This document shows, in pieces, positions 5,989 to 43,778 of a DNA stretch of 43,778 nt. The position numbers and the translations under genes were made by a program. Source of the stretch: an uncultured cyanobacterium (GTDB lineage: Bacteria; Cyanobacteriota; Cyanobacteriia; PCC-6307; Cyanobiaceae); assembly GCA_903917565.1 (NCBI GenBank), contig CAIXBB010000043.1, forward strand, positions 1-43,778, given 5' to 3'. The notes beneath the pieces are model-generated. The model had not been told where the DNA came from. It saw only the letters and a program-made list of their open reading frames with translations, and made no database searches. The number at the start of each line of letters is the position of its first letter. Positions within the stretch are counted from its first letter, which is position 1.

Positions 5989-6999
5989 ATGCTTCCCAGC
6001 CAATACCTCTCCTCCCTCACACTCGCGGAACGGCTGTATCGCCAGCAGCCCCTGTTGGCGGGCCAGATTTATTCACCGGAAGTGCTTCAGTTCCTTCGAG
6101 ACGGTGTGATCATCTTTCCGCAGGTGATGGATCCTGACCTCCTTGACCGGATGGACTCCGACCTGGACGACCTGCCGGCGCTGGCCCAGACGTCCCTGCT
6201 GCACGGCATGATCGGCATCGATGGCAAGGCGGATCACTACGAGGCCAAGGTTCTGCGCAATCTGCCGAAGCTTGGCATCACCGATCTGCGGCAGGCGGGT
6301 CCCGGGCTCAAGCTCAATGACCTGAATCGCTACTTCGATTCAGCTCGCGATCTCGCCTTCTCAGCCCCCATCATCCGTTTTCTCGATGAGCTCTTCGGAT
6401 CGGCACCGGCCCTGATTCAATCGCTCACCTTCTGGAAAAGCAGCGAGCAGTCGCTGCACCAGGACTTCTCCTACGTTCACCACCACAGCCGGTTGGGCCA
6501 CCTGGCCGCCGCCTGGATTCCCCTGGAAGACATCAGCGCCAAGGCCAGACCGCTCGTTTACTACAAGGGCTCCCATCTCCTGGAAAGCCATCAGTTCTAC
6601 GACTGGCACCAGGGTGGGATTCTCGCCAGCCGCAACACCGACCCCGGGACAGCTGCGGGCTACGGGCAGTACCTGGACACCCTGATCCGCGAGCAGGGCT
6701 GGACACCGCGCATCTATCTGCCCATGCGCGGCGACCTCCTGATCTGGCACGGGGCGTTGATTCATGGCGGCACCCCCATGGGGGATGCCAGCCTCACCCG
6801 CCGGTCCTACGTCTGTCACTACACGGCCGCCGCCAACCACAGGGCCATGGCCCGCCATCGCGTCGGGGAGGGCTACGACTTCTCCGAACCGCCCTCCCTG
6901 CCGGAATCGATGCGCCCCCGGTCGCTGCCCTCCCGGCTGGTCTCCGCCGCCGGCCGCCGCATGAAGCACCTCTTCAGGGAGGGGCGCACCCATGCCTAA
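5989..6999 (+). CDS. Phytanoyl-CoA dioxygenase (PhyH) family protein
   Basis: A 336-residue protein with the double-stranded beta-helix features of Fe(II)/2-oxoglutarate oxygenases. The metal-binding HxD is LHQDF (H157, D159), the distal histidine lies in WHGALIHGG (H259), and an arginine pair follows (RRSYVCHY, about 271), placed to bind 2-oxoglutarate. All facial-triad residues are present, so it is probably active. Substrate is unknown: bacterial PhyH proteins hydroxylate lipids, amino acids or secondary metabolites. The SUI1-like gene starts 8 bases before its end, suggesting co-transcription. ATG 5989 gives a complete N-terminus; no strong Shine-Dalgarno precedes it. Confidence 0.85.
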   Translation: MLPSQYLSSLTLAERLYRQQPLLAGQIYSPEVLQFLRDGVIIFPQVMDPDLLDRMDSDLDDLPALAQTSLLHGMIGIDGKADHYEAKVLRNLPKLGITDLRQAGPGLKLNDLNRYFDSARDLAFSAPIIRFLDELFGSAPALIQSLTFWKSSEQSLHQDFSYVHHHSRLGHLAAAWIPLEDISAKARPLVYYKGSHLLESHQFYDWHQGGILASRNTDPGTAAGYGQYLDTLIREQGWTPRIYLPMRGDLLIWHGALIHGGTPMGDASLTRRSYVCHYTAAANHRAMARHRVGEGYDFSEPPSLPESMRPRSLPSRLVSAAGRRMKHLFREGRTHA

Positions 7000-7318
7000 G
7001 GGCGGCTGGAAGGAGTTCAGCGGCTCGGAAAGCCTGCAGCGGCCTCCGGCCCCCGGCGGCCCTGGCCTGGCCAGGGCCCAGCAGCGCGTGCGGGTGCAGC
7101 GCACCAAGGCTGGCAAGGGCGGCAAGCTGGTCACGGCAATCACGGGGCTGGACATCCCAGACACCGAGGCCAGCGCCCTGCTGCAGCGGCTCAAGACCCG
7201 CGCCGGCACCGGCGGCACCCTCAAAGATGGGATGATCCAACTCCAGGGCGACCAGGTGGCCCTCACCCTGTCCGAGCTGGAGGCGCAGGGGTTCCGGCCG
7301 AAGCAGGCCGGGGGGTAA
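6992..7318 (+). CDS. SUI1/eIF1-like translation factor (YciH family)
   Basis: The 108-residue protein has the SUI1 fold pattern: a variable basic N-terminus, then VRVQRTKAGKGGKLVTAITGL and the C-terminal segment TGGTLKDGMIQLQGDQ, the classic family signature in which the TGGT loop contacts the ribosome. Bacterial members are related to archaeal and eukaryotic initiation factor 1; their exact bacterial role is not settled. The start overlaps the upstream oxygenase gene by 8 bases. cysC follows after 35 bases. Confidence 0.92.
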   Translation: MPKGGWKEFSGSESLQRPPAPGGPGLARAQQRVRVQRTKAGKGGKLVTAITGLDIPDTEASALLQRLKTRAGTGGTLKDGMIQLQGDQVALTLSELEAQGFRPKQAGG

Positions 7319-7353
7319 GGGAGAATGCGGCCCGAAGCCGACGTCCCGTTTCC

Positions 7354-7989
7354 GTGTCCGAGTTGACCTCGCCTTCCAAGGCCACCAACATCGTCTGGCA
7401 CCACTCCACCGTGACCCGCGCCGCCCGGGCCCACCAGCGGGGCCACCGCAGCGCCATCCTCTGGTTCACGGGACTCTCTGGGGCTGGAAAGAGCACCTTG
7501 GCCAATGCGGTGAATTCGGCCCTGTTCGAGCAGGGGCTTGCCTGTTATGTGCTCGATGGCGACAACGTGCGCCACGGGCTGTGCAGCGATCTGGGCTTCT
7601 CCGACGCCGATCGAGAGGAGAACATCCGCCGGATCGGTGAGGTGGCCAAGTTATTCCTGGATGCCGGCGTGGTGGTGCTCACCGCCTTCGTCTCCCCCTT
7701 CCTGGCCGACCGCCAGCGGGCCCGCGAGCTGGTGGAGACGGGCGATTTCCTGGAGATCCACTGCGCCGCCAACCTGAAAGTCTGTGAACAACGGGACACC
7801 AAGGGCCTTTACGCCAAGGCCCGGGCCGGGGAGATCCAGCAGTTCACCGGCATCTCCAGCCCCTATGAGGCCCCGGAGGCTCCCGAGCTGCGGGTCGCCA
7901 CAGGCGAACAGAGCCTCGACGAGTCGGTGGCCCAGGTGATGGTCGAACTGGAGCGGCGCGGCATCATTCCGGCTCCGGCAGAGCCCTGA
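7354..7989 (+). CDS. cysC: Adenylylsulfate (APS) kinase
   Basis: This enzyme phosphorylates adenosine 5'-phosphosulfate to PAPS in sulfate assimilation. The 211-residue protein has the Walker A loop GLSGAGKS at residues 40-47, the substrate segment DGDNVRHGL, REENIRRIGEVAKLF, the FVSPF segment and the KGLYAKARAGEI lid typical of CysC. Start is a GTG at 7354; this gives the usual length for the family. It is a stand-alone kinase, not fused to ATP sulfurylase. Its 3' end overlaps that of the convergent permease gene by 26 bases. Confidence 0.96.
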   Translation: MSELTSPSKATNIVWHHSTVTRAARAHQRGHRSAILWFTGLSGAGKSTLANAVNSALFEQGLACYVLDGDNVRHGLCSDLGFSDADREENIRRIGEVAKLFLDAGVVVLTAFVSPFLADRQRARELVETGDFLEIHCAANLKVCEQRDTKGLYAKARAGEIQQFTGISSPYEAPEAPELRVATGEQSLDESVAQVMVELERRGIIPAPAEP

Positions 7990-9719: not shown

Positions 9720-10976
9720 ATGGCATTGTCCCGTCCCGCGGCTGCCCGGATGCGCTGGCTGACCAACCTGCGACTGGCGGGTGACGATCCGGCCTACGGT
9801 GAGCCTGAGGGGCACCGGCAGGTGGGGCGCTGGCGGGTGGGTGTCGACAGCGACGGGCTGATCACCCGGGTGCGGCCGACGCCAGCGGGAAGTCGGGCCG
9901 CTGGTGAGGACTGGGGCGGCGACTGGCTGTCCCCGGGGGGAGTGGACCTGCAGTTCAACGGCGGCCTGGGGCTGGCCTTTCCCGAGTTGAGCCTCGACGA
10001 TCTGCCCCGCCTGCAGGCGCTGCTGGAACTGCTCTGGCGCGATGGGGTGGAGGCCATCTGCCCCACCCTGGTGACCTGCGCACCGGAGGCCCTGCGCCAG
10101 GCCCTGGCGGTGCTGGCCGAGGCCCGCGGCCGGCACCGGCCGGGCCGCTGCCGGCTGCTGGGCGCCCATCTGGAGGGACCGTTCCTGGCGCCGGAGCGGC
10201 GCGGCGCCCACCCAGCCCAGCACCTGCAGGCCCCTAGCCGGGCCGCCCTGAACGCCCTGATCGACGGCTTCTGCGGGGGCGCCGAGGCCGATGTCGCCCT
10301 TGTGACCCTGGCACCGGAGCTGGAGGGTGCCGCCGAGGTGATCGAGGATCTGCGGGCCGCCGGCGTGGTGGTCAGCCTGGGCCACAGCGGCGCCAGTGAG
10401 GAGCAGGCGCGCCGCGCCTTCGGGAGGGGGGTGGGGATGCTGACCCACAGCCTCAATGCCATGGCCGGGCTGCACCACCGCGCCCCGGGGCCCGTGGGCG
10501 CGGCGTTGCTCCAGGGGGAGGTGGCCCTGGGGCTGATTGCCGACGGCGTCCACGTGGCTCCGACCATGGCGGTGCTGCTGCAGCGGCTGGCGCCCCGCCA
10601 ACTGGTGATCGTCAGCGACGCCCTGGCCCCCTACGGGCTCGCCGACGGCACCCACCGCTGGGACGAGCGGCTCCTGCTGGTGAAGGACGGCAGCTGTCGG
10701 CTGGAGGACGGCACCCTGGCCGGGGTCAGCCTGCCGCTGCTGGAAGGAGTGCGGCGACTGGCCAGTTGGAGCGGCCTGGTGGCGGCCTCGATCGTCGCCG
10801 CCACCCTGGCCCCCCGGCGCCTGCTGGGGGAACGGCGACCGCTGGAGCAACTGCTGCTGGGGCGGCCCCTGGGGGACACCCTGCGCTGGAGCACGGCGGA
10901 CGGGAGCCTGCACTGGCGGCGCCCGGACACGGCGGTCAGCGGGTCGCAGGGGGTGGCCTCGGCCCCATCTCCCTAG
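9720..10976 (+). CDS. nagA: N-acetylglucosamine-6-phosphate deacetylase
   Basis: NagA removes the acetyl group from GlcNAc-6-phosphate during amino-sugar recycling. Amidohydrolase features are visible: [13 protein letters not shown] near the N-terminus (NagA enzymes lack the HxH seen in many amidohydrolases), the metal-binding [24 protein letters not shown] with a metal histidine, [17 protein letters not shown] with another, IADGVHV, and the catalytic aspartate in [10 protein letters not shown]. Length (418) is slightly above average. Start is ATG 9720, with ATG 9750 as an alternative that loses only ten residues; neither has a good Shine-Dalgarno. chlM follows 31 bases downstream. Confidence 0.93.
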
Positions 10977-36589: not shown

Positions 36590-38398
36590 TCACATCCGCT
36601 CCAGGGTGGGGATGCCGAGCAGGCCCAGGCCGAGCTTGAGAGTATCGGCGGTGAGGCGGCAGAGGGCGAGGCGGGAGCCCCGGGCCGGCTCATCGGCCTT
36701 CAGCACCGGCACCTGGTCGTAGAAGCGGTTGAACACCTGGGAGAGCTCGAAAAGATACGTGCAAAGACGGTTGGGCAGCAGTTCCTCCTCCACCTCGGCG
36801 ATCACCGCATCGAATTGCAGCAATTGGCGCACCAGAGCCCATTCCTGGGGCTCGTCGAACACCAGGGGCACGGGGAAGGCGGCGCCGGCGGCATCGGCAC
36901 CGCCCCGGCGAGCAATCCCGGCGATCCGCACCACCGCATAGAGCAGATAGGGGGCGGTGTTGCCGCTGAGGGCCAACATGCGATCGAAACTGAACTGGTA
37001 GTTGGTGATCCGATTGGTGGACAGATCGGCGTACTTCACCGCCGCCAGACCCACGGTGATGGCGACTTCTGCGATGAAGGCCTCGTCCTCCTGCCTCTCC
37101 TCCTCCGCCAGGCGGCGGCGCAGATCGGCCTCGCAGCGCTCCACCGCCCCATCCAGGAGCTCCTTGAGCCGCACCGTTTCGCCGGAACGGGTTTTGAGCT
37201 TCTTGCCGTCCTCCCCCTGCACCAGCCCGAAAGGAACATGCTCCAGGCGGCCATCGACGGGGATCCAGCCGGCGCGGCGGGCCACCTGGAACACCCCGGC
37301 GAAATGGCTGGCCTGGCCGGCGTCGGTCACGTAGATCACCCGCCGAGCCCCATCGCCTGCGGGGGGCACCGCAAAGCGGTAGCGGATGGCGGCCAGGTCG
37401 GTGGTGGCGTAGTTGAAGCCACCGTCGCTCTTGCGCACGATCACCGGCGGTGCCTGGCTTGCTGTGCCGTCCTCCTCCCCCACGAGGAACACACACTGGG
37501 CACCGCCATCGCTCACCAGCAGGCCTGCGGTGGCCAGGTCGGCCACCACCGTCTCGAGATAGGGGTTGTAAAAGGATTCGCCGCGCTCCTCGAGGCGGAT
37601 GTCGAGCGCGTCGTAGATCAGCTGGAACTCTCGGCGCGACTGATTGCACAGCAGCTGCCAGGCACGGCGCGACACCGGATCACCTCTCTGCAGCTTGACC
37701 ACCTCCTCACGGGACTGGGTCTGGAAGGCTTCGTCGCTGTCGAAGCGCGCCTTGGCCTGGCGGTAGAAGGCCACCAGATCGCCCAGATCCACCGCATCGG
37801 CGGTGATGAGCGCCTCGGGGGCCACCTGCTTGAGGTGGGTGATCAGCATGCCGAACTGGGTGCCCCAGTCGCCCACGTGGTTGAGCCGCAGCACCGGATG
37901 GCCGCGAAACTCCAGCACCCGCGCCAGGGAATCGCCGATGATCGTGGAGCGAAGATGGCCCACGTGCATCTCCTTGGCGATGTTGGGGCTGGAGAAATCC
38001 ACGATCACCGGGGCGGCACCGGGGGCCACGCTCGGCACCCCCAGCCGGGGATCGGCCAGCCGCCGGCTCACCTCCGCCGCCAGCACATCGGGCCGCAGGG
38101 TGAGGTTGATGAAGCCAGGGCCTGCGATCTCAGGCGGCATGCACAGGGCGTTGAAGGCGGGGTCGGCCTCCAGCTGGGCCACGATCGCTGAGGCAATCGC
38201 ACGGGGGGCGAGTCGCAGGGGCCGGGCCAGGGCCAGGGCGCCATTGGCCTGAAAATCGCCGAACTCCGGTTTCGAGGCCGGGCCGAGCTGGGTCTCCAGC
38301 GGTGCGCCGGCCTGGCGGGCGGCGGCCGCCGCTTCAGGGAAAGCACGCTCCAAGGCCCCCAGCAACTGGCTGTTCAGGGCGTGGGCAATGCGCAGCAT
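36590..38398 (-). CDS. argS: Arginyl-tRNA synthetase
   Basis: The 602-residue class I synthetase has an N-terminal Add-1 domain (about 1-115), the HIGH-type motif [11 protein letters not shown] with HVGH at 145-148, [18 protein letters not shown], the central [40 protein letters not shown] in the KMSK position (many ArgRS lack canonical KMSK), and the anticodon-binding C-terminus with [19 protein letters not shown] and [14 protein letters not shown]. It is complete. ATG 38398 is the natural start; a small gene of the nucleotidyltransferase pair overlaps its first 65 bases. Confidence 0.98.
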
Positions 38399-38582
38399 GG
38401 AGCGAAGCCGATGAAACGGTAGACGTGGACACGATCATCCTCCCCGGCGGCCCGGGGGGCGCATCCAAGGACCGTTCGATGACCCGCAGGAGCTCCACCA
38501 GCATGTCCGGCCTCAAAAGCGCAACGCGGAGGTGGCTCAGTCGTTCATCCAGCTTCAGCCTGGAAGGACCGTCGCATGTCAC
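38334..38582 (-). CDS. Small protein coupled to the nucleotidyltransferase gene, possibly a truncated partner
   Basis: A GTG at 38582 overlaps the stop of the nucleotidyltransferase gene (GTGA) and opens an 82-residue frame. The first part ([35 protein letters not shown]) looks like two amphipathic helices; the remainder is Pro- and Ser-rich and runs 65 bases into argS in another frame. In MNT/HEPN toxin-antitoxin pairs the gene after the nucleotidyltransferase encodes a helical HEPN ribonuclease of about 130-150 residues. The length and loss of helical character suggest a truncated partner, but no HEPN RX4-6H motif is visible, so this is tentative. Confidence 0.3.
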
Positions 38583-38938
38583 AGCAGGCGCTGGCCGCAT
38601 TCCCGGATCCGCTGCTGCCACTGGGGCGAAAGGCTTTCCAAACAGACCTGGTCTACGGGGATAGCAGCGGCGGTGGATTCCGCTTCCGCCATGGCATCGA
38701 GAAGATCCAGCTTCCTCAGGCCTTGCACAACGAGGTCGATACCGGAAGCCATGCCGAACACCCGGTCGATGGTCGACCCGAACAGCCAATCGCCACCGAT
38801 CGCCGGCCAACGGCGTTCCAGGACCTGGGCGCACAGTCTGGCCGCCGTCACAGCCCCCATCAATCGACTGTCGCAGGCCTGGAGCTCTCGGACCTCGCGC
38901 TCCTGCAAGTGGAGTCGGTGGGCGAAGGTAACCACCAT
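38579..38938 (-). CDS. MNT-type nucleotidyltransferase domain protein, first catalytic Asp missing
   Basis: The 119-residue protein has a helical start (about 1-45) and then WPAIGGDWLFGSTIDRVFGMASGIDLVVQGL (44-74), which fits the minimal nucleotidyltransferase (MNT) signature with GS at 54-55 and the SDIDL position as SGIDL, so the first metal-binding aspartate is glycine (G66) while D68 remains. The C-terminal [25 protein letters not shown] matches the usual ending of these proteins (VDLV-E...L..RI..EG..L). Such proteins are antitoxins that AMPylate a HEPN toxin. With one catalytic residue lost and a shortened partner, this looks like a decaying toxin-antitoxin module. Confidence 0.6.
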   Translation of the reverse strand: MVVTFAHRLHLQEREVRELQACDSRLMGAVTAARLCAQVLERRWPAIGGDWLFGSTIDRVFGMASGIDLVVQGLRKLDLLDAMAEAESTAAAIPVDQVCLESLSPQWQQRIRECGQRLL

Positions 38939-39243
38939 TCGCTCGGCTTGGGAGTTCGCGGATAACCCTGTCTCTGGGCTCTTTTGTCCCTCCGCAGGGC
39001 TGCTTCCAGCTGACTTCAGCTGATGGGCCAGTATCAGCCGCTCAGAACCCTCTATTTCGCCGGGTCGGCACTGCCCCTACAGCCGTTCCACTCCCGCCCG
39101 GGCACACCTCTGGGCATCGGCCTGCCCATGCCGACAGCGGAAGCTCGCCAGCCGCTTGTAAGCTCCGCGCAAGCTGACTCCTGCTTCCGCTGCAGGGGCA
39201 TTGAGCGGTATGCCCACTTAGAAGTGCCGGCGAATAAGGCGTT

Positions 39244-39267
39244 CCCGACTGATGGGTGTCAGTCGGG
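39244..39267. repeat. Perfect 9-bp stem, 6-base loop hairpin
   Basis: CCCGACTGA (39244-39252) pairs with TCAGTCGGG (39259-39267) around the loop TGGGTG. There is no downstream T-run, so it is not a standard rho-independent terminator. It lies in the long spacer, far from any confident gene. Confidence 0.7.
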
Positions 39268-39510
39268 CCAATGGGTGGCTACGAATGGTGTGTGAGGTCT
39301 TGGGAATGGCGGTGACACCCCGACCCTGGGGCGACATCGCACCCAATCGTCAGCTGAACAACCTGGTGGGTCTACACATCTAGCAACGATGGGTCCATGC
39401 CAGGCTTCAACCTCCTGCACACCTGTCGAGCAGGCCCCCAGGGCGGCCATCGGGAACGCGAGCATCCTGGCGCCACTGATGGTCACTGGCTGGCGGGCCG
39501 AGGCCAGATT

Positions 39511-39543
39511 TGCCACCACCCCCGCCAGGTGGGGGTGGTGGCA
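39511..39543. repeat. Perfect 13-bp GC-rich hairpin
   Basis: TGCCACCACCCCC (39511-39523) is followed after seven bases by its exact reverse complement GGGGGTGGTGGCA (39531-39543). A 13-bp perfect, strongly GC-rich stem is very stable as RNA. No T-run follows. It could be a processing or protection structure in a transcript, a site for a structure-recognising enzyme, or a residue of a mobile element. Confidence 0.75.
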
Positions 39544-39589
39544 GGATTCGCCGCCCTCCTCGAAACAGAGAAGGAGGCCTGTCGTGTAG

Positions 39590-39760
39590 ATGCTGGAACG
39601 CGCGGCGCGCCTGCTCGCACAGCAGCAGCCCGGCCCGTCCGGACACCTGATCGCCCGCCTGTCGCTTCACAAGTTCCTCGCGGCAGCGGAGCTGAACGCC
39701 CTCGTCGTCGTGCTTCCGGGGACACGAGCGCCGCCGCGCTCTGCCGGGGCACCTGCTTAG
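39590..39760 (+). CDS. Possible small protein (56 residues), weak
   Basis: An ATG at 39590 opens a 56-codon frame rich in Ala, Leu and Gln (MLERAARLLAQQQPGPSG at the start, a hydrophobic stretch AELNALVVVLPG in the middle). A strong Shine-Dalgarno-like AAGGAGG lies about 12 bases upstream, somewhat too far. No family recognised. It is listed because of the ribosome-site candidate, but may be chance. Confidence 0.2.
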   Translation: MLERAARLLAQQQPGPSGHLIARLSLHKFLAAAELNALVVVLPGTRAPPRSAGAPA

Positions 39761-40157
39761 AGGCGGGCCCGGCCTGGGGGTCCAGGGTCACCCCAGCGCC
39801 CTCACCTCAGGGACGGCCTCCCAGGGGGCGGGGCTGATCGACCGGGATCCCCTGATCGTGCCTGCGTGCCGATGCGGACCGCACCACAGAAAACCTGACG
39901 CAAGGGAGTGTGCCCTTTGCACAGCAAGACAGCGTGTGAAAGAGCCCTGAGCGCGCCAAGGAGGGAATGGAGTCCATCGAGGAGGGGGGTCCTTCCATGA
40001 GGGGAGATACCGGGATTCCCCTGAAAACCCTGATGGAGACAAGGATGCTTCGAAATCGGGACCGCTACGAAAGGCCGCCGCGCTTTGGGAAGCCAACCTT
40101 AACATTACCTTGAGCACAGGCTAGACAAAATGGCTCAGGACCCTCTAGGGTGAATGG

Positions 40158-40967
40158 GTGGTGAAAGCAAGAGCAGTGCAGCCCCAAACCCGTCAACGAC
40201 TCGCCGACCTGTCGGCATTGGCTGTCTTGCTGTCGGCAAGCCCTGCTCTTGCGACGAGCAATCCTTTCACGGTGTACATCGACGGCAGGTTCGGAAGCAC
40301 CAACAATCCTCCGACGGGTTCGGCATCAACGGCCATTTTCACAATTTCCAAAACTGGCAATAACGCCGCAGTCAATATCCTGCTGAAAAATACAACCGTT
40401 GCTCCCACCCAGTCCACCCTGGTCGGGCTTGCCTTCGCTACTCCTAATAATCTCACTTATACGAGCTACAATTAGAACGGCACAGTTTTCACTGACGTCT
40501 TCACTGGCTCATCAGCCCAGATCAATGGCGACCCTTTCAATAACACAACCTTTGATCTCTGCACACGGGTTACAGGTGGCTCAAACTGCAGCGGAGGGAA
40601 TCCACAGGCAGGCTTGACACGGGGGCAACAAGCCTCTGCACCCATCACCTTCAATTTCACCGACTCCCAGACCAACAGAACCGAGCAGCAGTTGGCCAAC
40701 GACTTTGCGAATCTCTACGCCCTCACCGGTGGTACGACCCCTTCCTACCAAATCGCGGGCCGATTCCAGCAAGTTTCGAACTGCACCGTCAGCCCCTGCG
40801 CGGGCAGTGACAAAGTGGGTGGCGCTACAGGGGTGAATCCTCCTCAGGGTCCGACCGACGCGGTACCGGGTCCGGTTCCCCTTTTTGGCGCCGCGGCAGC
40901 TTTTGGGTACAGCCGCAGGCTACGGAGACGTATCAGCCAATCCAATCTTCCATCCCAGATCAGCTGA
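40158..40967 (+). pseudogene. PEP-CTERM-like exported protein interrupted by an in-frame amber codon
   Basis: One continuous frame from GTG 40158 to 40967 encodes 269 residues broken only by TAG at 40473-40475 (codon 106). The first part has a signal peptide (RLADLSALAVLLSASPALA) and a Thr/Asn/Ser-rich start; after the stop the same frame continues with Thr/Asn-rich sequence, cysteine pairs (DLCTRVTGGSNCSG, SNCTVSPC) and ends in VPGPVPLFGAAAAFGYSRRLRRRI plus a short tail. That ending, a VPGP motif, a hydrophobic helix and an arginine cluster, is a PEP-CTERM-type sorting tag of the kind used by cyanobacterial exosortases. The two halves do not differ in style, so the stop is a point mutation, sequencing error or recoding event. 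AGGG about eight bases before 40158 is a plausible ribosome site. Confidence 0.7.
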
Positions 40968-41024
40968 CCACGGAGGTCACTCAATCCGCAGTTCCGGCCC
41001 GCAGGTCTGCCTGATCTCCCCAGA

Positions 41025-41046
41025 GAAAGAGGATCTATCCTCTTTC
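41025..41046 (+). terminator. Hairpin after the PEP-CTERM-like gene, possible terminator
   Basis: GAAAGAGGA (41025-41033) pairs perfectly with TCCTCTTTC (41038-41046) around a TCTA loop. It lies 58 bases after the end of the PEP-CTERM-like gene. The A-rich 5' and T-rich 3' arms resemble a weak intrinsic terminator, although the T-run is part of the stem. Confidence 0.5.
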
Positions 41047-41195
41047 AATCTGTTCCCCACTGCTTGGGTTGAGACAACGGTTTCACATCCTAGATGGCCT
41101 CTCAGGTGTGATAAGCACCAACGAGGCACTTAGCTTTTCTTGGCAGCGGTCACGCAGGAGGGCTTAAGGAAGGATGCATCCCTGGCAGGATTGAG

Positions 41196-41220
41196 CAACC
41201 CGCATCGGCATGGCGGGTTG
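41196..41220. repeat. Perfect 8-bp stem, 9-base loop hairpin
   Basis: CAACCCGC (41196-41203) pairs with GCGGGTTG (41213-41220) around ATCGGCATG. It is in the spacer upstream of the HpsJ-like gene; role unknown. It may be a terminator for an unrecognised transcript or a leader structure. Confidence 0.55.
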
Positions 41221-41441
41221 ACCCGTGCCCCGTTCCCCCCCAACATGGGAAGATCCGGTTGCGTCCTGGCGTCAAACCGAAAGTAGCCATGGATTCTAAT
41301 GACGGATAGAGCCTGTACCAGCTCACACCCACACAACCCTTGATGCCCAATACCTCCGCAAGCAACACATCAAGCTATCAGCAAAACCATACATTCACCT
41401 CAGCAGTCCTCTACTAGCATTATCAACAAGCAAGGAAATCC

Positions 41442-42365
41442 ATGGGAACGAGCGAGCCAGAGAAAGAGCTGATTGATTCAGTCCATGGGCCAGAACACTT
41501 TCAGTCTCAGATTCTCGCAGACAGGCTGGCATTCTTGTCACTGGCTCTTTTTGTCATTTATGCAGCAACAGCGGTTACATCCCTTGTACCGCTTCAACTG
41601 CTCGACCCCATCTGGCAACTCAAAAGCATCGCAATTCTGCTTGAATCGGCCGCCTTACCCTTACTTGCTCTGGGTCTGTTGCATCTATCCTCCTATCTGG
41701 ATCCACAGAACCTTCCTCTGAAGCGGCGCTGCAAGACAGTCGCTCGGTGGGCCATCTTGGCAGCCATAGGCTTCTTGCTGATCTGCCCATTGCAGATTTA
41801 TGCGGCTTTATCAACCTACAGCAACGCCAACATTACCGTAGAACGACAGGAAGCCAGAGCCACAGAAACGGCAAATGCCGTACGAGAGGCCATCAACGAA
41901 TCCAAAAGCCATGAAGACCTCCAGAGACGTCTGAGGGATCTTCAGCGTCCGGACCTCAGACTTACTGCGAACACCACTGACCTGCAGTCCATTCCACTCC
42001 CCCTTCTGAAAACCCAGCTCCTTGCAAGGCTGAAGGAGGCAGAAGACCAGGCAAAGAAGAGTTTCAAGCGTCCCGATCCTGATGCCGTTCAGGGCTTGGT
42101 GCGTGACTCCTTGAAAATTTTCATTGTTTCCGCCGTGCTTGCTTTGGCATTTGCAGCCGGTGCCCAGCGCAAGGGAAGTGAGGTTCCCCTGCTGGTGGAA
42201 CTGCATACGATGTGGGCGCTGAGAAGTATGGGGAGGTCTGGGCGTGGCAACCAGAAACGCATAGCAGGCATTCCAGTTCCACTGAGCAATGAAATAGCAG
42301 AGGAGAGTTATTTCGAGAAGCTCGTGCCCGAGGAAGACGAACCAGCGCCTCGCTCCGACAACTAA
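41442..42365 (+). CDS. HpsJ-like membrane protein (cyanoexosortase-associated type)
   Basis: The 307-residue protein has three N-terminal membrane helices (about 29-50, 64-84, 103-124), a long charged helical region (about 127-215; VERQEARATETANAVREAINESKS, LARLKEAEDQAKKSF) likely to be coiled-coil, and a fourth helix (about 223-243), then a cytoplasmic tail. Helices at N-terminus, central coiled region with DLQ repeats and a last helix fit the HpsJ family, first linked to hormogonium polysaccharide secretion in Nostoc and repeatedly found with cyanobacterial exosortase/PEP-CTERM systems. The nearby gene at 40158 encodes a PEP-CTERM-like tag, which fits. No exosortase gene lies in the window. 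The gene is A+T-richer than the core genes. Confidence 0.65.
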   Translation: MGTSEPEKELIDSVHGPEHFQSQILADRLAFLSLALFVIYAATAVTSLVPLQLLDPIWQLKSIAILLESAALPLLALGLLHLSSYLDPQNLPLKRRCKTVARWAILAAIGFLLICPLQIYAALSTYSNANITVERQEARATETANAVREAINESKSHEDLQRRLRDLQRPDLRLTANTTDLQSIPLPLLKTQLLARLKEAEDQAKKSFKRPDPDAVQGLVRDSLKIFIVSAVLALAFAAGAQRKGSEVPLLVELHTMWALRSMGRSGRGNQKRIAGIPVPLSNEIAEESYFEKLVPEEDEPAPRSDN

Positions 42366-42585: not shown

Positions 42586-43636
42586 TCATCCCGGTGCCGC
42601 CGCCATTGCCTTCCGCTGTGATCGCCGAAATCTAAACAACTTGAGCAAGTTGTGGATGGCAGCGGTCAGGTGCCACTCGCCTTTCACCTTCTCCAGACCC
42701 CGCAGCAGGAAGCGTCTCAGTTCACGGCCTTCCTTGATTTGCCCGTTCACCGGCTCCACAATCGCCTTGCGCTGGACGTAAATCGAAGAGCCTTTCTTGC
42801 TTCTGTGCTCGCGGGCCATGCGGGTTTTGGCATCGGCGTCTTTGGGCATCGGGCCACATTGAGGCGATAACGACTGCCCTTGCGGGAGAAGGCCGGAGGC
42901 GTAGCTCTTGGCTTCCGCGCAGCAGTTGGTCCACGTTCGGAGGCTGGTTGCTCTCCCCCACCGCCACGATCACCTGGTGGTCGCTGTCGACAGCCAGCTG
43001 AAAGTTGTAGCTCTGCAGGCAGGTCCCACCTGACTGCATCAGATGGGTGTCTTTATCAGCGTAGCCGCAGGGTTCCGCGAAGCGGTGTGTCCCGCGTCAA
43101 GCCCCTTGGCCGCTGCAAGCTCGGCATTCTTGTTCAGCTCGGCCTGCTCGGCTGCCGGTGCCCCGCGTGATGGGTGTCAAGCGACATCCGCTTCCATCTG
43201 CTTGCGTGCCTGGCGGATCCTGGCCAGGCGGTCCTGCCGCCGCCGCAGCTCATCCGGCAGGTCGCTGCCGCGGTGCCCTTGCCATAGCGCCGGTCCTCCT
43301 GGGCGACCGCTGCGCGGAAGCCTTGCGGCTACGAGGATCTCGGCCTTGCGAATCAAGGCATTGATCTCCTTTGCCAGCTGCGTCTCGGCAATGAGCATCC
43401 GCTCGTGGCTCATGGCCTTGTGTGTGCTGGCATTGGCCTGAACCTTGGTGTCAACCAGCGCCACATGCCCCAAGCTCACCATGTTGGTCTTCTGACACAG
43501 CCGCAGGATCTGAACAAAACGCTCGCTCAGCGCGTCGAAGTTGCGGCGTCGGAATTCGCTGTAGCGGTAGGGCTTCTGCGAAGCAGTTGCGGCTGTGGTC
43601 GGGCTGCTGGTTGCCTTTCAGCACACGAAAAGCCAG
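42586..43636 (-). pseudogene. IS1182-type transposase, frameshifted and truncated
   Basis: Read on the minus strand, pieces of one transposase occur in order in changing frames: LAFRVLKGNQQPDH near 43590-43636; RRNFDALSERFVQILRLCQKTNMVSLGHVALVDTKVQANAS (about 43440-43560), of which the later part lies in 43177-43482; SYNFQLAVDSDHQVIVAVGES and NQPPNVDQLL within 42722-43039; and YVQRKAIVEPVNGQIKEGR...FLLRGLEKVKGEWHL in 42586-42849. These are typical IS1182-family DDE transposase blocks. At least three frame changes make it non-functional, and the N-terminus is missing, cut at the boundary with the IS3-type element. There are stretches of poor similarity between blocks, so small deletions are likely too. 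Confidence 0.85.
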
Positions 43637-43656
43637 GTGGGGTTGCCCCGATTCGG

Positions 43657-43675
43657 TGGACAGTGATCAGGGCCT
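43657..43675. repeat. Possible terminal inverted repeat of the IS3-type element
   Basis: TGGACAGTGATCAGGGCCT starts 10 bases outside the OrfB stop, the position expected for the right inverted repeat of an IS3-family element. Its first seven bases match the presumed tip at 306 (minus strand). The true end could instead lie a little further left at TGCCCCGATTCGG (43644). Confidence 0.4.
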
Positions 43676-43778
43676 CGCGGTGGTGAGTGTACGGGCAGCG
43701 ATGTACTGCTGCTCGTAGTCGATTGGGCTGAGGTAGCCGATCGTTGAGTGACGGCGCTCACGGTTGTAGTAACCGTCG
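43667..43778 (-). CDS. IS3-family transposase OrfB, C-terminal end only
   Basis: The minus strand from the window edge reads DGYYNRERRHSTIGYLSPID and YEQQYIAARTLTTARP, then a stop at 43669-43667. YxNxxRxHSxLGYxSP is the classic end of the IS3-family DDE integrase (OrfB). The rest lies beyond the window. The element abuts, and probably inserted into, the IS1182-type transposase remnant. No frameshift is seen in this short part. Confidence 0.88.
   Translation of the reverse strand, partial: DGYYNRERRHSTIGYLSPIDYEQQYIAARTLTTARP

Follow-up and report, generated by a model that had tools for sequence, protein, structure and literature searches.

The window analysed here is a stretch of 43,778 nucleotides which forms contig C43 of a 46-contig cyanobacterial genome of 3.02 Mb that is 99.94% complete. 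Close to the right end of this contig, a frame ending in a sorting tag and a gene for an HpsJ-like protein lie on the forward strand with a gap of 474 bases between them. The features on which the analysis is built are the following.

36590..38398, reverse strand: argS, arginyl-tRNA synthetase (profile match), conserved beside the pair and a marker of its address.
40158..40967, forward strand: cistern-family gene for a putative VPGP-tagged surface protein; GTG start, 269 codons, with an in-frame stop inside.
40473..40475, forward strand: TAG stop, in frame, by which the tagged gene is interrupted (frame reading).
40863..40934, forward strand: C-terminal sorting tag, VPGP plus transmembrane helix plus arginine cluster (4-row tag model).
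41442..42365, forward strand: intact gene for an HpsJ-like membrane protein of 307 aa (NF050013), of the HpsJ clade accompanying cistern proteins.
42586..42849, reverse strand: transposase remnant (DDE_Tnp_1_6), outside the system.

The pieces at 40158-40475 and 40614-40967, which stand apart in the list of open reading frames, are one frame split by the TAG. With the TAG read as Q this frame matches the NCBIfam PEP-cistern profile NF033947 at E 6e-13, from residue 34 to residue 258 and over profile positions 10-195 of 195, and its 49 bits, obtained by reading through the stop, fall below the curated cut-off of 60 bits. An alignment to 20 relatives shows collinearity before and after the stop, a conserved tag and two invariant cysteines, and in tblastn searches with relatives the homology crosses the TAG in the same frame and reaches the tag. 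Because family homology runs through the TAG up to the tag, the tagged gene is broken in the given sequence. In-frame TAGs in two tagged genes (the one in the window and that of locus L088) and in the exosortase gene of genome G090 raised the question of amber suppression. This is disfavoured, as no tRNA gene with a CUA anticodon is among the 39 detected in this genome, the one considered, in an ARAGORN list that is itself incomplete in naming no tRNA-Ile. The TAG of the window is therefore best read as a nonsense codon or a sequencing error, and the cassette is probably decaying, unless the base itself is misread.

The tag, VPGPVPLFGAAAAFGYSRRLRRRI, is followed by ten further residues which end the protein, and it scores E 2.9e-14 against the 4-row tag model, of which it is itself one row. 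A helix is predicted at residues 245-262, followed by the basic cluster RRLRRR at the C-terminus, and a putative signal-peptide cleavage site resembling SPALA-TS can be picked out by eye. The structure model of the cistern protein (pLDDT 72, pTM 0.66) consists mainly of beta-strands. It has no match in the PDB at E <= 0.001, and weaker beta-sandwich matches (AP2 mu2, cellulose-binding domain) were set aside.

The neighbouring HpsJ-like frame matches nearly the whole of NF050013 (HpsJ_like_A, 'cyanoexosortase A-associated') at E 3e-24 and 85.9 bits; the cut-off of this model, 140 bits, is reached neither by this protein nor by any match in 151 genomes sampled from the family. It is full length and aligns end-to-end with 25 relatives, to which it is 32-46% identical. 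Its seven best hits (41-47% identical, the next being at about 36%) are all partners of cistern proteins, one of them adjoining a degenerate cistern gene. The structure model (pLDDT 76, pTM 0.51) is predicted to be mostly helical and has no PDB match at E <= 0.001. The initial annotation had reported a tag with an HpsJ-like gene 474 bases downstream, and the matches to NF033947 and NF050013 confirm that both are more than chance resemblances, with the correction that the tagged gene is not intact.

A search of genome contigs with an alignment of HpsJ proteins returned 13 loci from records named Synechococcus, Cyanobium and Aphanothece, while the same search with a single HpsJ sequence confirmed no relative. 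Twelve of these loci carry HpsJ genes of the cistern clade and 11 show cistern genes, which mostly alternate with HpsJ genes, up to three per available stretch; in L123 and L124 two HpsJ genes stand side by side. The array is adjoined by argS in nine of the 13 loci; the remaining four either offer too little sequence or represent a different family. In the window the order is that of its relatives, argS and then the pair, with a single cassette only. Since the argS address recurs in nine of the 13 named relatives, the most plausible view of the pair is that it resides at this site and is no transposon passenger. It had been suggested that the pair is flanked by transposase debris able to move it. 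The debris is real on the right side, where the DDE_Tnp_1_6 remnant looks incidental, but on the left (38337-40117) eight open reading frames are without a Pfam match at E <= 0.01. With a remnant on the right side only and an address shared by relatives, mobility by flanking transposases was rejected as the default explanation.

Other features of the flanks can be noted here. A 119-aa open reading frame beside argS (38579-38938, reverse strand) resembles Polbeta nucleotidyltransferases at E 3e-4, below the Pfam cut-off, and similar frames adjoin argS in L127, L128 and L134; we take it to be possibly a remnant of HEPN/MNT type. A PADLOC scan of the two open reading frames at 38334-38935 was empty, and Rfam and tRNA scans found nothing in the window. 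The last bases, 43618-43778, look by eye like the 3' portion of a transposase gene of IS3 type, and as the contig ends inside this gene it was probably at a repeated insertion sequence that the assembly stopped.

Elsewhere in the genome the other components of a sorting system are present. A single exosortase is encoded on contig C23 (PF09721, 93.3 bits, one match at E <= 0.001). It is best matched by cyanoexosortase A, the CrtA-like model TIGR03763, at 126.4 bits, which is below the cut-off of 150. It has the motifs CNG at position 236, NTFR at 279 and HESTG at 305 of the protein; Cys-x-Gly, Asn-x-x-Arg and His-x-x-x-Gly are described as invariant in exosortases in the accessible part of PMC1569441. 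Genes for SLBB, Poly_export, Polysacc_synt_2 and glycosyltransferase proteins lie in the 19 kb around the exosortase gene, and the frame that follows it matched no NCBIfam model. Five tag genes were found in the genome at E <= 2e-12 with a model made from four of them, and beyond these five nothing scored below 0.04 with the same model. Four of the five have an HpsJ-like gene within 1 kb; the fifth, on C4, is unpaired, and so are its relatives in G090 and G113. The earlier proposal that the pair is part of a genome-wide sorting system, for which the genome was to be searched for an exosortase and for other tagged proteins, is thus upheld, the search having found the enzyme on C23 and, besides the tag gene of the window, four others of its type.

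The arrangement is like the PEP-CTERM/exosortase (EpsH) system, of the TIGR03763 type, in several respects: a predicted exported protein with a C-terminal motif, helix and arginine cluster; one membrane exosortase with C-x-G, N-x-x-R and H-x-x-x-G, near polysaccharide genes; and several tagged proteins per genome, five in this case. It is unlike that system in that VPGP replaces the near-invariant Pro-Glu-Pro of the published tags, and for this reason the window protein is filed as a variant and not as a canonical PEP-CTERM protein. A second difference is that most PEP-CTERM proteins are described, in the accessible part of PMC1569441, as products of single-gene operons, whereas the tag genes here are often paired with hpsJ. 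The window HpsJ is homologous to NF050013 HpsJ_like_A and, like that family, is tied to exosortase genomes, occurring with a CrtA-like exosortase that is itself below its cut-off; it departs from the model in its score (85.9 against 140 bits) and in lying on a contig other than that of the exosortase. Similarly the tagged protein is homologous to PEP-cistern NF033947 but has a VPGP tag, and the genes of its relatives stand in tandem with HpsJ.

An association of HpsJ-like proteins with cyanoexosortase is already known at the family level from the NCBIfam names, the name HpsJ itself being derived from a hormogonium polysaccharide gene set. In Nostoc punctiforme, loss of CrtB alters adhesion to polysaccharide and the PEP-CTERM exoproteome (PMC12188702, accessible part, in which HpsJ goes unmentioned); that enzyme is of the B type in a filamentous organism, whereas here we deal with a predicted A type in a picocyanobacterium. 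In the cyanobacterial literature searched, HpsJ is named in a gene list or a cluster figure legend only, one such list being in the accessible part of PMC10581220. The same literature yielded no paper joining PEP-CTERM with VPGP or with Cyanobium, and for exosortases in picocyanobacteria it offered a single paper, on Planctomycetota; a search of papers outside subscription found no published description of the pairing of tag genes with HpsJ.

The extent of this pairing was assessed in seven genomes of the genus, the present one among them. There are 5 tags in this genome and, at E <= 0.05, 8 to 19 in each of the six congeners; 84 of 86 tag rows were used (G148:C71, E 0.0136, and G000:C37, E 0.041, were dropped), together with 75 of 76 HpsJ_like_A rows (G113:C17:5967, E 0.0012, was dropped), the latter numbering 6 to 19 per genome. 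An HpsJ-like gene lies within 2.5 kb of the tag gene in 53 of the 84 cases, where random placement would give about 1.6. In 41 of these pairs HpsJ directly follows the tag gene on its strand; 7 are divergent, 4 are convergent and 1 has HpsJ upstream. No HpsJ lies within this distance of the remaining 31 tag genes, and seen from the other side 54 of the 75 HpsJ matches are within 2.5 kb of a tag and 21 are without one, so that a local partner is not obligatory. Whether a tag gene is paired tends to go by substrate family, two families being mixed.

For clustering, 66 of the 84 tag genes were taken (18 unpaired ones being left out), and 64 of the 66 encoded proteins, those of 50 aa or longer, entered the tag-model scans and the motif count. 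The motif is VPGP in 54 of them, VPAP in 4, APGP in 2 and VPSP/VPSH in 2, with 2 outside the pattern. At E <= 0.01 TIGR04155 recognises 3 of the 64, PEP-cistern 3 and PID_CTERM 1, and the Pfam families returned for them include no PEP-CTERM model. As current models mostly miss VPGP, many sorted surface proteins of freshwater Synechococcus and Cyanobium are probably unrecognised. By our reading of the loci, the substrates at L103:2915-3799 and in L087 and L093 include metzincin-like metalloprotease and DUF1194/VWA-like proteins.

The broken frame of the window is not the only one of its kind. Short frames occur in 11 of the 66 tag genes, two of which (L064 and L098) are cut by contig ends. In the window and in at least five others, namely L077 (G090:C25:2370), L088, L089, L096 (32307) and L106, homologous coding sequence lies upstream but is broken by a stop or a shift of frame; L068, whose stop falls in the signal region, and L118 (1101361) are doubtful cases, and the short tag frame of L108 has no upstream homologue. 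All 55 HpsJ open reading frames in the loci examined, which include the 53 paired ones, are 244 aa or longer, and the partners of interrupted substrate genes are full length. This intactness of HpsJ beside broken substrates fits a retained function and is no proof of specificity; HpsJ can also decay, as a remnant without a tag at L130:7410-7853 demonstrates. It could be that the window locus is simply dead, with a substrate pseudogene and a remaining hpsJ that has no function here. The in-frame TAG in a genome with no CUA tRNA among 39, the adjoining transposase remnant and the five or more congener pairs with broken substrates would agree with this. The HpsJ protein is nevertheless full length and alignable from end to end with its 25 relatives, and the frame after the stop is otherwise intact, tag included, and a sequencing error could account for the break; we regard a dead locus as somewhat unlikely.

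A related observation concerns genome G090, whose only exosortase match (L142:8059-8910) is interrupted by a TAG in frame, five residues ahead of the conserved His, and which nonetheless has 16 tag genes at E <= 1e-4. The matched exosortase stretches of the other six genomes of the genus have no stop. The TAG in G090 may reflect a loss in culture or a sequencing error.

Comparison of the two members of the pairs helped to clarify how they have evolved. Clustered without their tags, the 66 tagged proteins fall into nine families with at least two paired members each and many singletons. In a quick tree of HpsJ proteins (53 rows) every one of the nine substrate families corresponds to one group set against the others, with support of 92-100. 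Eight changes of family are needed on this tree, which is the minimum, compared with a mean of 19.5 when families are shuffled, and none of 200 shuffles came as low. The tree includes 25 rows without a family, and some of these, singletons with no detectable substrate similarity, sit inside family groups. The best HpsJ hit shares the substrate family in 25 of 28 cases, against a mean of 1.5 and a maximum of 11 in 10,000 shuffles; when hits within one genome are left aside, 26 of 28 agree. Among 21 cistern pairs, including that of the window and leaving out L123:42-299 as too short, distances between substrates and distances between partners are correlated with a Mantel r of 0.85, a value reached in 0.12% of within-array partner swaps. 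For substrates under 55% identical the correlation is only r 0.33, and for nine tags the upstream HpsJ correlates at 0.83 and the downstream HpsJ at 0.95. From the drop to 0.33 and the near equality of the upstream HpsJ it follows that much of the correlation is inheritance by array position.

The tag protein and HpsJ thus descend as a unit. Co-inheritance of linked genes needs no physical interaction, nor does it by itself establish physical specificity. A tag-hpsJ operon might have been copied around the genome by linked duplication only, with any HpsJ serving any substrate. The tandem cassette arrays beside argS are what such copying would leave, substrate families and HpsJ groups would co-diversify in just this way as linked copies, and the tag protein is tracked by the upstream HpsJ almost as closely as by the downstream HpsJ. 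In spite of this, the pairing holds across substrate families that show no BLAST similarity outside the tag, and duplication alone leaves unexplained why all 53 paired HpsJ proteins are 244 aa or longer when at least six of the 53 substrate genes are broken. We consider linked duplication as the whole explanation to be unlikely.

Analysis of 151 genomes of the family to which the window belongs placed these results in a wider context. The PF09721 exosortase was found in 29 genomes and HpsJ_like_A (E <= 0.001) in 86. HpsJ is present in all 29 exosortase genomes and also in 57 of the 122 that lack a detected exosortase, from which it follows that the HpsJ family has a role outside sorting as well. 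Two or more HpsJ matches are found in 28 of 29 exosortase genomes compared with 1 of 122 genomes without (Fisher p 4e-28, a value overstated because the genomes are related). A single HpsJ copy is thus independent of sorting, and it is the extra copies that accompany the exosortase. The single copy is seen repeatedly in relatives that lack an exosortase, at about base 10,300-10,900 in seven genomes consisting of one contig, and is probably a core gene with another role. Tags were detected at E <= 1e-4 in 23 genomes, of which 21 also have an exosortase, and the two that lack it, G096 and G103, are 85% and 88% complete. At this threshold no tag of VPGP type was seen in eight of the 29 genomes with an exosortase. 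In other genera of the family there are eight loci at which HpsJ, in the same orientation as the exosortase gene, lies immediately before it or overlaps it; these come from 15 loci picked for closeness of HpsJ, tag and exosortase and do not represent a rate. The initial annotation had asked whether tags and HpsJ co-occur, and the 53 paired tags out of 84, as well as the distribution of multiple HpsJ copies, answer that they do. Its term 'satellite' was right in assigning the pair to a wider system and too weak for a genus in which 53 of 84 tag genes lie near HpsJ.

It is improbable that HpsJ-like proteins serve polysaccharide synthesis or export with no direct role in sorting, the tagged proteins being mere neighbours in a surface-glycan module: the name from the hormogonium polysaccharide gene set and the 57 of 122 HpsJ-bearing genomes without a detected exosortase speak for this, but two or more copies occur almost only with exosortase (28/29 against 1/122), and HpsJ genes adjoin tag genes and, in other genera, abut the exosortase gene.

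On balance it is probable that the pair is one cassette within a divergent sorting system of the cyanoexosortase A type, that many substrates of this system have a cognate HpsJ-like partner, and that the local substrate gene has decayed or been misread. In such a system the first gene would give rise to an exported, mainly beta-strand surface protein of the cistern family, which its VPGP-type C-terminal tag would hold in the inner membrane. The lone exosortase of the genome, encoded in the polysaccharide locus elsewhere, would then cleave the tag, so that the protein could pass to the surface or to the polysaccharide. This route of export, anchoring and cleavage is modelled on the accessible parts of PMC1569441 and of the study of the Nostoc CrtB mutant (PMC12188702), by analogy with which the cleavage and the surface or polysaccharide function are proposed. 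The HpsJ-like protein is most likely a dedicated membrane partner which presents, holds or hands over the substrate at the exosortase, a role we propose because of the pairing, the co-inheritance and the abutment of HpsJ to the exosortase gene.

We would put forward more tentatively, as a possibility still short of even, that the HpsJ-like paralogues are substrate-specific escorts between the single exosortase and its diverse VPGP-tagged proteins. If this is true, sorting would be modular, with each substrate having a private adaptor, and would not depend on recognition of the tag alone; cassettes would duplicate as units, and substrates would decay faster than adaptors. Exosortase sorting is known mainly by its tags, and HpsJ proteins that diversify together with substrates offer a concrete and testable accessory role.

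Two other HpsJ loci of this genome may be mentioned. The tag-HpsJ pair at G000:C10:3317-4433 directly adjoins a tRNA-Arg gene, and tRNA genes are a common kind of integration site. At L112 (G000:C19), with no tag within 2.5 kb, the HpsJ match at 6940-7542 is above the cut-off of NF038305, at 102.7 bits.
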